Positions 19,958-55,200 of a stretch of 64,000 nt of DNA are shown here, piece after piece (within the stretch, counting starts at the first letter, position 1; the number at the start of each line of letters is the position of its first letter). The stretch comes from Ruminococcus sp. GTDB lineage: Bacteria; Bacillota; Clostridia; Oscillospirales; Acutalibacteraceae. The stretch is from NCBI GenBank assembly GCA_017464765.1, contig JAFTYK010000039.1:24729-88728 (forward strand), in the 5' to 3' direction. A program made the translations under genes and the position numbers. Below the pieces are notes generated by a model. It was not told the DNA's origin. It was given only the letters and a program-made list of their open reading frames with translations, and searched no databases.

Positions 19958-20060
19958 TGTAACAGCGGGATGCAAAGACCGTACCGCAGGTCACCCTTTC
20001 GTTTCCACAGCAACTCCCCGTCTGTGAAACACTTGACGCACGATCTTTTACTCTGTATTT
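19958..20060 (-). ncRNA. Tetrahydrofolate (THF) riboswitch
   Basis: The minus-strand leader of folT contains the conserved THF aptamer blocks in order: AGAGTA, GCGTCAAGTG, GACGGGGAGTTG, AACGAAAGGGTGACC, CTGCGGT and TTTGCATCCCGCT. Gene context (folate transporter) agrees. Ligand binding would favour the downstream attenuator and switch folT off. The exact ends are approximate. Confidence 0.9.
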
Positions 20061-20736: not shown

Positions 20737-20764
20737 AGTAAAATTATAGCGTAATTATAACGCA

Positions 20765-20872
20765 CATCTTCTTTCATCCGGACTATACCGTCGGTTTCGG
20801 AATTTCACCGAATCAGCTTGCGCTCGTGGACTTTACCACCGGTGGGGAATCTCACCCCGCCCCGAAGATATT
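20765..20872 (-). ncRNA. FMN riboswitch (RFN element)
   Basis: The minus-strand sequence contains the canonical RFN blocks: ATCTTCGGGGCGGGGTGAGA, TTCCCCACCGGTGGTAAAG, CCACGAGC, AAGCTGATTCGGTGAAATTC, CCGACGGTATAGTCCGGATG and the closing AAGA. It precedes ribU and a terminator, so FMN would end transcription. Confidence 0.97.
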
Positions 20873-20906
20873 AATATTATATATAGCATTAATAAAAGTG
20901 TCAATA

Positions 20907-29876: not shown

Positions 29877-29885
29877 ATGTATGAA

Positions 29886-29959
29886 CACTTATGCAACTGA
29901 CGGATGTAAGCGAAATAACGCAAGGAAGCATGGGTGCATTATAGCCGACCGTCTGGGCA
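29886..29959 (+). ncRNA. ZTP/ZMP riboswitch (pfl motif)
   Basis: The pflB leader carries the pfl-motif blocks GCAACTGACGG, a variable hairpin, GGAAGCATGGGTGCATTATA and the near-invariant end GCCGACCGTCTGGGC. This aptamer senses the purine intermediate ZMP/ZTP, a sign of poor one-carbon supply. The final CTGGGC strand of the pseudoknot overlaps the first arm of the terminator, so ligand binding would prevent termination. Confidence 0.9.
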
Positions 29960-29987
29960 GTTCGCTTTTAAAGTGAATTGCCCTTTT
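29955..29987 (+). terminator. Riboswitch-controlled terminator before pflB
   Basis: GGGCAGTTCGCTTT pairs with AAAGTGAATTGCCC (G-U pairs included) and is followed by TTTT. The pflB ribosome site lies about 20 bases on. Confidence 0.88.
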
Positions 29988-53691: not shown

Positions 53692-53740
53692 GAAAATAAA
53701 AAAATACAGGCACACCATTGATGCACCTGTATTTCTGGCT
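53692..53740 (-). repeat. Second copy of the tRNA-Gln end plus terminator
   Basis: These 49 bases are identical to 53903-53951, 211 bases away. They contain the last bases of tRNA-Gln (AGCCA) and its terminator hairpin (53704-53732; arms ATACAGG and CCTGTAT). The next 11 bases partly match the tRNA acceptor (GGCGGGG shared), so the repeat extends into the gene. Confidence 0.9.
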
Positions 53741-53902
53741 CTTAGGCGGGGAGATCGTCTGCGTAGGCTACGCCTAGCATACTAATGGCTCGACGACCGT
53801 TTGCGATGCAAACAGTACCCGTCTCACCGCTCTTTGCTAAAAACGATACACTGTATCGTTTTCTTAACGCTCAGACCCTCTCGGGTTCGAACTCCACACC
53901 CC
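53741..53902 (-). other. Structured tRNA-linked element core (copy at tRNA-Gln)
   Basis: On the minus strand this 162-base segment, between the two terminator copies, holds a GTTCGAACCC block, a hairpin AAAACGATA-CAGTG-TATCGTTTT (53840-53862), AGAGCGG, a hairpin GTTTGC-ATC-GCAAAC (53799-53813) and GCGTAG-G-CTACGC (53761-53773). The first two hairpins have counterparts in the elements behind tRNA-Gly. No convincing reading frame is present. It is probably a structured RNA or a non-autonomous insertion. Confidence 0.7.
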
Positions 53903-53951
53903 GAAAATAAAAAAATACAGGCACACCATTGATGCACCTGTATTTCTGGCT
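53903..53951 (-). terminator. tRNA-Gln terminator (first repeat copy)
   Basis: The hairpin at 53915-53943 (on the minus strand ATACAGGTGCA pairs with TGTGCCTGTAT, two G-U pairs) is followed by TTTTTTTATTTT. The block includes the tRNA 3' end and is repeated at 53692-53740. Confidence 0.85.
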
Positions 53952-54022
53952 GGGAAGGCGGGGTTCGAACCCACGAAATGACGGAGTCAAAGTCCGTTGC
54001 CTTACCGCTTGGCTACTTCCCA
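53947..54022 (-). tRNA. tRNA-Gln (anticodon TTG)
   Basis: The 76-base minus-strand gene folds as a cloverleaf: acceptor TGGGAAG/CTTCCCA, D-arm TAGCCAAGCGGTAAGGCA, anticodon stem ACGGA/TCCGT with loop CTTTGAC (anticodon TTG) and T-arm around GGGTTCGAACCC. Discriminator G and CCA are encoded. Confidence 0.96.
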
Positions 54023-54150
54023 ACAACAAGAATTAGTATATCATATTTTTATTTTATGTCAATATCGAGGTTAAAAAAATAATACTTTATTATATCGCAA
54101 AAATATGTTATACTTTATAAAAATATACATATAATGTAAGGAGAATAGTT

Positions 54151-54543
54151 ATGCCTATAGTATCTCTTAAAGGTTATAAGGTGGATAAACTTGATTTTGT
54201 AGCACTTCTTGAAAATGGTACACAGGTTAAGCTTGCACATAAGTATCAGTACAACGTTCAGTATGCTAAAAACAACGTTTGTAAAGGTGAGTTTGATATC
54301 GAAGTGTACGATTCTAACAACCCTGATAAGTTTAAGATTCACGTTGTAATGTCAGGAATTTTTGCTTTTAACGAGGGCGAAAAGAAAGAACGTATTCATA
54401 CCGAGACTTTCAAGGGGCTTTTCCCTTATCTGAAGGCTTTTGTGACCACCGTTACAGCTAACTGTGGTATCCCACCGATTATTATTCCTGATATTGATAT
54501 CGACAATCAGGAAATTTATCGTATTGATAATAATCCACAGTAA
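54151..54543 (+). CDS. SecB-like chaperone-fold protein
   Basis: The 130-residue protein has a SecB-like C-terminal half: VVMSGIFAFNEG, then TFKGLFPYLKAFVTTVTANC and GIPPIIIPDIDI, which match the order of strands and long helix in SecB (GIF..., LFPYARE..., FP.LNL.P). The N-terminal strands (LDFVALLENGT, VQYAKNNV) also fit. SecB is rare in Firmicutes; isolated SecB-like proteins can be antitoxin chaperones, but no toxin gene is adjacent. GGAG lies 9 bases before the ATG, with TATACT near -10. Confidence 0.6.
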   Translation: MPIVSLKGYKVDKLDFVALLENGTQVKLAHKYQYNVQYAKNNVCKGEFDIEVYDSNNPDKFKIHVVMSGIFAFNEGEKKERIHTETFKGLFPYLKAFVTTVTANCGIPPIIIPDIDIDNQEIYRIDNNPQ

Positions 54544-54604
54544 TATTTGACAAATGGCGAAGTTTGTGCTAGAATAACTTCTGCAGTAAAAACTTCGCAT
54601 ATTC

Positions 54605-54679
54605 GCGGGTGTAGCACATCGGCTAGTGCATCGGCCTTCCAAGCCGAGGAGGTGGGTTCGATTCCCATCACCCGCTCCA
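54605..54679 (+). tRNA. tRNA-Gly (anticodon TCC)
   Basis: This 75-base gene has acceptor GCGGGTG/CACCCGC, D-arm TAGCACATCGGCTAGTGCA, anticodon stem CGGCC/AGCCG region with TTCC giving anticodon TCC, and T-arm GGTGGGTTCGATTCCCATC. CCA is encoded. The last 14 bases (CATCACCCGCTCCA) recur at 54863-54876 and 55060-55073. Confidence 0.95.
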
Positions 54680-54876
54680 TAAATATTAACGGGTATCCTT
54701 TTGGATACCCGTTAATTTTACTTAAAGAATGCGGAAGGATGGGAATCGAAGGCGACCGTAAATAAAACGCTTCAGTGGAGCGTTTTTAGGGAGAGCGCAG
54801 ATGCTCAAGTTTGTATCACAATGGCAACAAACGGGGTGGTACTAATAATTTAGAAGAATATACATCACCCGCTCCA
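54680..54876 (+). repeat. tRNA-linked element, tandem copy 1
   Basis: This 197-base unit begins with a terminator (TTAACGGGTATCC, TTTT, GGATACCCGTTAA), then GATGGGAATCGAA (54738-54750, complementary to the tRNA-Gly T-arm), the hairpin AAAACGCTT-CAGTG-GAGCGTTTT, GAGAGCGC, a GTTTGT/ACAAAC stem, ACTAATAATTTAG and finally CATCACCCGCTCCA, a copy of the tRNA 3' end. No protein is encoded. It differs from copy 2 at only four bases. Confidence 0.85.
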
Positions 54877-55073
54877 TAAATATTAACGGGTATCCTTTTG
54901 GATACCCGTTAATTTTACTTAAAGAATGCGGAAGGATGGGAATCGAAGGCGACCGTAAATAAAACGCTCCAGTGGAGCGTTTTTAGGGAGAGCGCTGATG
55001 CTCAAGTTTGTATCACAATGGCAACAAACGGGGTAGTACTAATAATTTAGAAGAACATACATCACCCGCTCCA
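54877..55073 (+). repeat. tRNA-linked element, tandem copy 2
   Basis: This is the second 197-base unit. Its four differences from copy 1 leave the paired regions intact: one turns a G-U pair of the CAGTG hairpin into G-C, one is in the GAGC..GCTC loop, and two lie in the unpaired tail. It again ends with CATCACCCGCTCCA. Confidence 0.85.
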
Positions 55074-55074
55074 A

Positions 55075-55200
55075 CGTCGTCGCAGACTATCTAGGTCTGC
55101 GACGATTTTTGCATTAAAATCGTCTCCTGACCTAATCGTCACTCCTCCTTACCCCAAAATCTCAGATTTCGGTGGCCGTGCCAAAAACATTAAAAACGAA
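55075..55200. other. Overlapping hairpins behind the tRNA-Gly elements
   Basis: TCGTCGCAGAC and GTCTGCGACGA form an 11-base stem followed by TTTTT, probably the original tRNA-Gly terminator. The same downstream arm continues GACGATTTT, which can instead pair with AAAATCGTC a few bases later, so the two stems exclude each other. A further palindrome AAATCTCAGATTT and GC-rich blocks (GGTGGCCGTGCC) follow. No gene is seen up to 55278. Confidence 0.55.

Follow-up and report, generated by a model that had tools for sequence, protein, structure and literature searches.

Small hairpin-bearing units with a host-matched antisense block behind tRNA genes of Ruminococcus and other Clostridia

Two tRNA genes in a 64,000-nt stretch of a Ruminococcus sp. 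genome (contig JAFTYK010000039.1), referred to here as the window, are followed by small structured units that belong to a larger family, which is the subject of this analysis. The usual order of a unit is the tRNA, usually a terminator, a block antisense to that tRNA (up to 19 nt, matched against host tRNA positions 54-72 and anchored on TTC), a 10-bp hairpin (hairpin 1), a sequence running to about AACAYA, and a copy of the tRNA 3' end. The conserved parts outside the palindrome are GAAGGCGA, TAG.GAGAGCG, and AACAYA. A sequence-only reading of the window had proposed a structured family behind tRNA-Gln and tRNA-Gly; the two tRNAs, the repeat spaced by 211, the 197-nt tandem, and the hairpins were all recovered, and the observation is confirmed and larger than first noted.

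The host tRNA-Gly (TCC), called by ARAGORN at 54605..54679, is the target of copies 2 and 3, two tandem units of 197 bp each with 98% identity, all of whose features lie on the plus strand. An inverted-repeat search matched the tRNA-Gly stretch TTCGATTCCCATC (54657..54669), which begins at tRNA position 54, to the antisense blocks of copy 2 (54738..54750, its exact reverse complement) and copy 3 (54935..54947); these blocks are 13 nt long and 100% complementary to the tRNA-Gly T arm. In copy 2, hairpin 1 (54764..54786; repeat search and covariation) lies in the conserved core (54748..54842) recognized by a covariance model, R1, which was built from six copies, and the right end is a 14-nt copy of tRNA-Gly 63-76 (CATCACCCGCTCCA; 54863..54876) found as a direct repeat. 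Copy 3 has its conserved core at 54945..55039 (repeat search and model) with the hairpin at 54961-54983, and the same 14-nt direct repeat (55060..55073) closes both this unit and the array. The terminator CGTCGTCGCAGAC..GGTCTGCGACG past the array (55074-55110) recurs before or after units at other tRNAs, at five loci (L029, L096, L123, L126, and L137; L and G numbers are the locus and genome labels of this analysis), much like an independent repeat.

Copy 1 lies on the minus strand behind its target tRNA-Gln (TTG; 53947..54022; ARAGORN and the Rfam tRNA model). A repeat search found a 49-nt block comprising the tRNA-Gln 3' end and the terminator hairpin twice, at 53903..53951 and 53692..53740, with a spacing of 211; the commonest repeat of the family is the 14 nt of tRNA 63-76. 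The remaining parts are an antisense block (GGGGTGTGGAGTTCGAACCC; 53883..53902), read by eye and partially complementary to the tRNA-Gln T arm, hairpin 1 (AAAACGATACAGTGTATCGTTTT; 53840..53862; repeat search and folding), a second stem with the motif GGTACTG..CGGT (53792..53823; read from the sequence, folded, and compared), and, as the right end, a degenerate copy of the tRNA-Gln 3' end seen by eye (53735..53755). R1, built on six other copies, scored only 29.3 bits here (in L025/L088). The same order of parts had been assigned to both loci, and it holds for the Gly copies, whereas the Gln copy is a second subtype with a different post-hairpin stem (GGTACYG...CGGT), a layout common to the copies of G336 and G345, two genomes outside the genus. 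Window stretches folded with z-scores of -5.5 and -5.7, the terminator being included in both.

At the gathering threshold, Rfam returned three riboswitches and two tRNAs across the whole window, leaving the units themselves without a match, and at five loci searched with E up to 10 the tRNA alone reached threshold. The Rfam model of the group I intron catalytic core matched neither the window nor the five loci. The riboswitches are FMN (20762-20873, minus strand), THF (19961-20057, minus strand), and ZMP/ZTP (29883-29965, plus strand). A literature search, which covered passages of PMC10589994 on clustered regularly interspaced short palindromic repeats (CRISPR) and tRNA hotspots, found no description of the element.

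The family is abundant in the genus. R1 has hits in 90 of the 100 genus genomes (E up to 0.001) and as many as 20 in a single genome; under stricter filters it hits only 3 of 245 genomes across the order, the window's own genome counted. A core pattern was present in 32 of the 60 genus genomes searched, compared with a total of 10 matches for the reversed control; in named genomes it was found in 52 stretches, 28 of them titled Ruminococcus (including R. bromii ATCC 27255 and 5AMG, and Ruminococcus sp. FMBCY1), and the exact core pattern is absent from viral contigs. Class-wide, a looser pattern occurs in 29 of 391 genomes and 19 of 223 genera (own genome counted), with 46 matches versus 8 in the reversed control; of 23 distinct strings for the hairpin between its fixed ends, 20 form a palindrome with no more than one mismatch. 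In the genome of the window itself, which is 67% complete, additional copies lie behind tRNA-Pro(GGG), tRNA-Arg(ACG), tRNA-Leu(TAA), tRNA-Leu(CAG), and tRNA-Arg(CCG), and at least 7 of its 25 detected tRNA genes carry the element.

We read 217 distinct copies with their context, three of them from outside the genus. In 156 of the 217, ARAGORN called a same-strand tRNA no more than 900 bp upstream, and in 110 of these it lies within 120 bp; the 156 tRNA-linked copies represent 29 tRNA/anticodon types and 15 amino acids. Among the 61 copies without a called tRNA, 13 are short of upstream sequence, and 13 of the other 48 have a tRNA 3' end by a strict test. In G336 and G345, too, a tRNA precedes most copies read. 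The expected clustering of hits near tRNA genes is thus borne out in the genus but holds only in part class-wide, where a called tRNA lies within 260 bp upstream in 10 of 33 hits (the window Gln copy counted) and within 650 bp in three more, and where some repeats have none. Arrays are common: 85 of the 217 copies have a neighbor within 450 bp, and neighboring copies are spaced 138 to 440 bp apart. No reading frame is conserved, as had been noted for the window, each of the six frames being open across the core in 19-60 of 214 copies; the longest closed open reading frame (ORF) in the 214 units with 60 bp on either side encodes 70 aa, and none is of integrase or recombinase size. Since the units contain no closed ORF longer than 70 aa, any protein involved must act in trans. 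The terminator was rejected as a fixed part of the unit: the start of block plus core follows the tRNA after only 36-38 nt in L070 and L205, and in L238, where the tRNA was recognized by eye beside a masked stretch, the gap between tRNA and block is just 3 nt or so. Hammerhead and kink-turn motifs glimpsed by eye were unconserved and were dropped.

The part of the unit that says most about its nature is the antisense block. The sequence-only reading had recorded the T-arm-complementary block but missed that it changes with the host tRNA. Removal of 19 copies with a poor anchor and 55 without a tRNA within 900 bp left 143 of the 217 copies, representing 119 unique block-tRNA pairs. The blocks agree with their own tRNA at 15.06 positions out of 19, whereas 2000 permutations gave a mean of 11.00 and a maximum of 11.55; tested against 60 tRNA tails, the own tRNA was strictly best in 58 of the 119 pairs and tied in 23. 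The match to own versus other tRNAs was 93 versus 53% at position 57, 92 versus 36% at 59, 89 versus 50% at 63, 82 versus 28% at 64, 70 versus 27% at 67, and 43 versus 36% at 72. The match declines from 98% at position 54 to 43% at position 72, and these position-wise figures indicate that it begins at T54 and fades with distance. Seven rows belong to tRNA-Pro(GGG): six of their blocks target TTCAAGAGG in the anticodon arm, and the seventh (L160), at another tRNA-Pro sequence, targets the T arm. Block-tRNA mismatches are balanced (G.T 90, A.C 99), as plain drift would also leave them. In G070, two cores 93% alike (text-similarity ratio) lie at tRNA-Pro(CGG) and tRNA-Leu(TAG), and both carry the tRNA end appropriate to their site.

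Downstream, 106 of the 156 tRNA-linked copies have an exact piece of the tRNA 3' end. Its length is 14 nt (63-76) in 65 copies and 16 nt in 22, while the 19 others have pieces of 10-13, 15, 17-18, or 31 nt. Of 49 single copies, 29 show the 14-nt length; the match stops at CCA in 16, goes 1-7 nt beyond it in 18, and goes 12-60 nt beyond it in 15. The right-end consensus AACAYA was derived from 92 distinct ends, with 57-89% agreement per position. Three of the six anticodon-arm tRNA-Pro(GGG) rows carry 30 nt, from the TTCAAGAGG end to CCA, plus 1-3 matching nt before; of the remaining three, one carries 12 nt of tRNA and two carry none. A target-site duplication of fixed length was rejected because of the roughly 30-nt copy in those three rows.

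Empty sites were sought with a query joining tRNA-Pro(TGG) to tRNA-Val without a unit, which matched 24 of 100 genus genomes. The joint is unbroken in G090, G042, G051, and G060, and in G080 up to the contig end. It is split on one contig in G072, G068, G006, G069, and G074, the first pieces ending at 76-79 and the second starting at 61-64, so that approximately 63-76 is present twice. In G013 a plain hairpin, but no unit, lies in the roughly 50 nt between the two tRNAs, and the other 13 genomes showed one piece only or pieces on separate contigs. An alignment of three empty and three occupied sites makes the insertion visible, and in G072 a hairpin arrived with it. Five empty and five occupied versions of one tRNA operon thus identify the element as an insertion, and the earlier proposal of site-specific, non-autonomous integration is upheld. 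The units show both marks of an integrative element at a tRNA gene, a tRNA 3' copy at the far end and a clean empty site. A unit can therefore sit within a tRNA operon, where it is presumably co-transcribed.

Hairpin 1 shows strong covariation. Cells are paired in 99.2% of cases, with 271 two-sided changes compared to 76 in shuffles and 4-30 in slid controls, while one-sided standard changes affect only 5 cells; the covariation first seen between the two window loci was therefore real. The CAGTG loop, in contrast, had been regarded as constant, yet the triloop varies among 108 distinct hairpins (AGT 38, GGT 21, GGG 10, TGT 10, TGC 9, and others). The cells of these 108 gap-free hairpins that depart from Watson-Crick pairing comprise G.T 10, A.C 10, and other 13. 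At the same loci, the G.T to A.C ratio is 22:0 in tRNA acceptor stems and 64:3 in T stems (86:3 for tRNA stems together), and 68:1 in the 102 distinct hairpins, i.e. terminators, between tRNA and block; by Fisher's test, the balance in hairpin 1 differs from the terminators at 3.5e-7 and from the tRNA stems at 9.3e-7. RNA tolerates G.U but not A.C on the transcribed strand, and hairpin 1 is therefore not under RNA-type selection in the genus, which leaves two options, a function as DNA or palindrome correction that maintains its perfect pairing. The first description had left the choice between a selected RNA or DNA structure open with a leaning to RNA; the structure stands, and in the genus the mismatch balance reads as DNA, so that this leaning was probably wrong, while non-autonomous integration had been recognized correctly and the guide incompletely. 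Comparing G.T with A.C mismatches is a simple way to tell DNA from RNA structure.

Taken together, most copies lie behind a tRNA that remains whole upstream and have a block antisense to that host, a DNA-type hairpin, and an AACAYA right end. In most copies the joined tRNA copy starts about 9 nt after TTC and extends as far as CCA; block and junction have a preferred phase relative to each other, and the units form arrays. Insertions, a matched sequence, and a nearby junction look like undescribed guided DNA insertion. We propose, with a probability of roughly 40%, a small non-autonomous DNA-hairpin element that carries a guide and, perhaps in the form of folded single-stranded DNA, is inserted by a recombinase acting in trans. 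The antisense block would be the nucleic-acid guide that chooses the tRNA. A recombinase encoded elsewhere would cut a single, folded strand of the element. The block's distal half may pair with the unit's own tRNA-end copy (63-72) to form a duplex half-site, and its proximal half (54-62) may pair with the target strand upon exchange at 62|63. Repeated insertion at one tRNA could then yield tandem arrays. More tentatively, the units may represent a new nucleic-acid-guided integration in Clostridia, with a rewritable guide of up to 19 nt, insertion about 9 nt into the match, the tRNA preserved through its 3' end, and a shared hairpin module that marks a wider class, possibly reaching another phylum. 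If the guide reading is true, a short complementary sequence rather than a protein's preference sets the insertion site in an abundant gut genus.

Several observations weigh against this proposal. No enzyme was found and no copy was caught moving. Another tail beats the host tRNA in 38 of the 119 pairs, and 15 of the 143 guides have fewer than 5 contiguous matching nt from T54. Fifty of the 156 tRNA-linked copies lack an exact tRNA-end piece (no copy in 33, an inexact copy in 7, and insufficient sequence in 10), and the proposal does not account for the rewriting of guide and tRNA copy for a new tRNA. The DNA signature holds within the genus; outside it the evidence is thin, hairpins there showing G.T 3 and A.C 0 in a small sample, and the later stems of the unit show G.T 11 and A.C 4. 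The hairpin module also occurs in tandem repeats without a called tRNA, and one type of the class-wide hits has it in the opposite orientation. Finally, in G067 the right end of a large resident element (L319 1440-1600) meets a tRNA-Leu piece at about position 63-64, as an ordinary integrase might leave it; two units follow immediately, next to the integrase gene of the element. This last arrangement favors conventional double-stranded integration at tRNA 3' ends by a tyrosine recombinase, in which integrases of resident elements would mobilize the units and the block would be an extra inverted core-type binding site. Such integration usually produces tRNA 3' end copies, larger elements occupy the same tRNAs, and phage-type integrases occur in 13 of 13 searched genomes; in addition, the units in L069 and L122 come after TnpV-like ends (by eye), and one such right-end sequence is common to L119 and L214. 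Nevertheless, the block tracks the host tRNA at variable positions, and in tRNA-Pro(GGG) the block, and the junction where the right copy is full, move to the anticodon arm, a shift not expected from the sequence preference of a single protein. Two large G067 elements, at tRNA-Leu(GAG) and tRNA-Leu(TAG), moreover have tRNA-proximal ends without a block or hairpin by eye, and we consider this explanation unlikely. As to the enzyme itself, a general family search found Phage_integrase in all 13 genomes, and Y1 transposase genes occur in 10 of 13, being absent in G345, which has copies, and present in G010, which has no R1 match; hence, neither type is singled out or eliminated.

An RNA could instead be the guide, if the unit were transcribed with its tRNA and a 5' guide and scaffold steered an enzyme to the tRNA gene. 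The layout, guide 5' and then scaffold, resembles the IscB omega RNA, a group I internal guide, or a bridge RNA, the strongest pairing adjoins the scaffold, and copies within tRNA operons are likely co-transcribed. Neither hairpin nor guide pairing within the genus shows a wobble bias, however, which led us to demote the RNA-gene reading to a rival; with no Rfam match besides tRNA at threshold in the five loci and no closed ORF above 70 aa in the units, it is improbable. A block complementary to the adjacent tRNA, on the transcribed strand and in 90 of 100 genus genomes, might also suggest regulation, with the block in a read-through transcript pairing with the T arm to control tRNA maturation or termination. 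This seems very unlikely, given that a terminator-like hairpin with an RNA signature (102 distinct) usually stands between tRNA and block, that guide mismatches show no G.U preference, and that tRNA-end copies and arrays would be left unaccounted for. The near-perfect Watson-Crick stems, with 5 one-sided versus 271 two-sided changes, are what palindrome correction gives, and replication template switching at tRNA genes might make and homogenize such inverted repeats passively, with neither enzyme nor guide; the conserved non-palindromic parts, the sharp junction, and the clean empty sites nevertheless speak against passive palindromes, to which we give equally little credence.

The proposed guide-carrying element shares traits with several known systems. 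Integron attC sites and the CTX-phage attP(+) site are folded single-stranded sites that recombine with a double-stranded target through an enzyme acting in trans, and tandem arrays form at one site. The units would likewise use a folded single-stranded site and a trans enzyme, and they form tandem arrays. Their stem sequence varies while pairing is kept without wobble bias, a pattern that may or may not reflect a structure read from single-stranded DNA. Unlike integrons, they occupy 29 tRNA anticodon types rather than a single attI or dif platform, have no closed ORF above 70 aa, and carry a target-complementary block. IS200/IS605 elements use DNA hairpins with a guide 5' of the hairpin, complementary to the target just 5' of the insertion point. 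The units also have a hairpin with a 5' guide, but the guide measures 9-19 nt instead of 4-5 nt, a 14-nt tRNA repeat is common where IS200/IS605 leave none, and Y1 genes do not appear to track unit copies in the 13 genomes searched. A far-end tRNA 3' copy and a tRNA left whole are shared with tRNA-targeting integrative elements and phage satellites, from which the units differ in their 138-440 bp spacing, the lack of an integrase gene of their own, and the tRNA-specific antisense block. IS110 bridge RNAs share the programmable logic of recombination, with guides for target halves; the units differ in having no recombinase-sized ORF (no DEDD recombinase lies within them), a long tRNA repeat, and a DNA signature. 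Repetitive extragenic palindromic (REP) sequences, REPINs, and palindromes like miniature inverted-repeat transposable elements are also small, structured, non-autonomous, and present in many copies, whereas the units lie at tRNA genes, each site with its own guide.

No autonomous form was found among the contexts read, in which several neighboring elements were noticed. A large serine-recombinase-like element (by eye) lies between tRNA and unit at L236 (283-8464). The TnpV-like ends at L069 and L122 occupy the same position and are recurrent, and the right-end sequence common to L119 and L214 ends in a tRNA 3' piece. In G070, a type I restriction-like module (by eye; L239 10988-15060) with short inverted ends GCCGAGTG/CACTCGGC lies inside the terminator hairpin of a second unit behind tRNA-Ser(GCT). 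One uncharacterized gene, followed by a stray GGTTCAAGTCC, stands between tRNA-Pro and a unit in G030 (L241 13600-14980); elsewhere, too, single genes separate a tRNA from its unit or precede units that have no tRNA nearby. By eye, the integrase at L318, beside a tRNA-Asn array of G067, closely resembles ones in G033, G099, and G022, of which G022 has no R1 match; L318, L322, L323, and L324 encode closely alike tyrosine recombinases of 313-327 aa, three of which adjoin defense-like genes (SIR2- or NACHT-like, by eye).

The hairpin module was also seen in other settings. In a small-genome clostridial lineage (L366 and L367), the hairpin is reversed relative to tRNA-Gln and the guide (by eye in L367). 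Two more repeat types with the module, flanked by TCTTTGAGAACTGTCGGGG / GGTGGACCATCAGTC and without a called tRNA, occur in other Clostridia (L378/L383/L391 and L388/L389). A contig labeled as alphaproteobacterial, a label that may reflect a binning error, carries a tandem array (L292 3060-3351) with a near-identical hairpin and GAAGGCG, where no tRNA was noticed; this array adjoins a threonyl-tRNA synthetase gene, named by eye.

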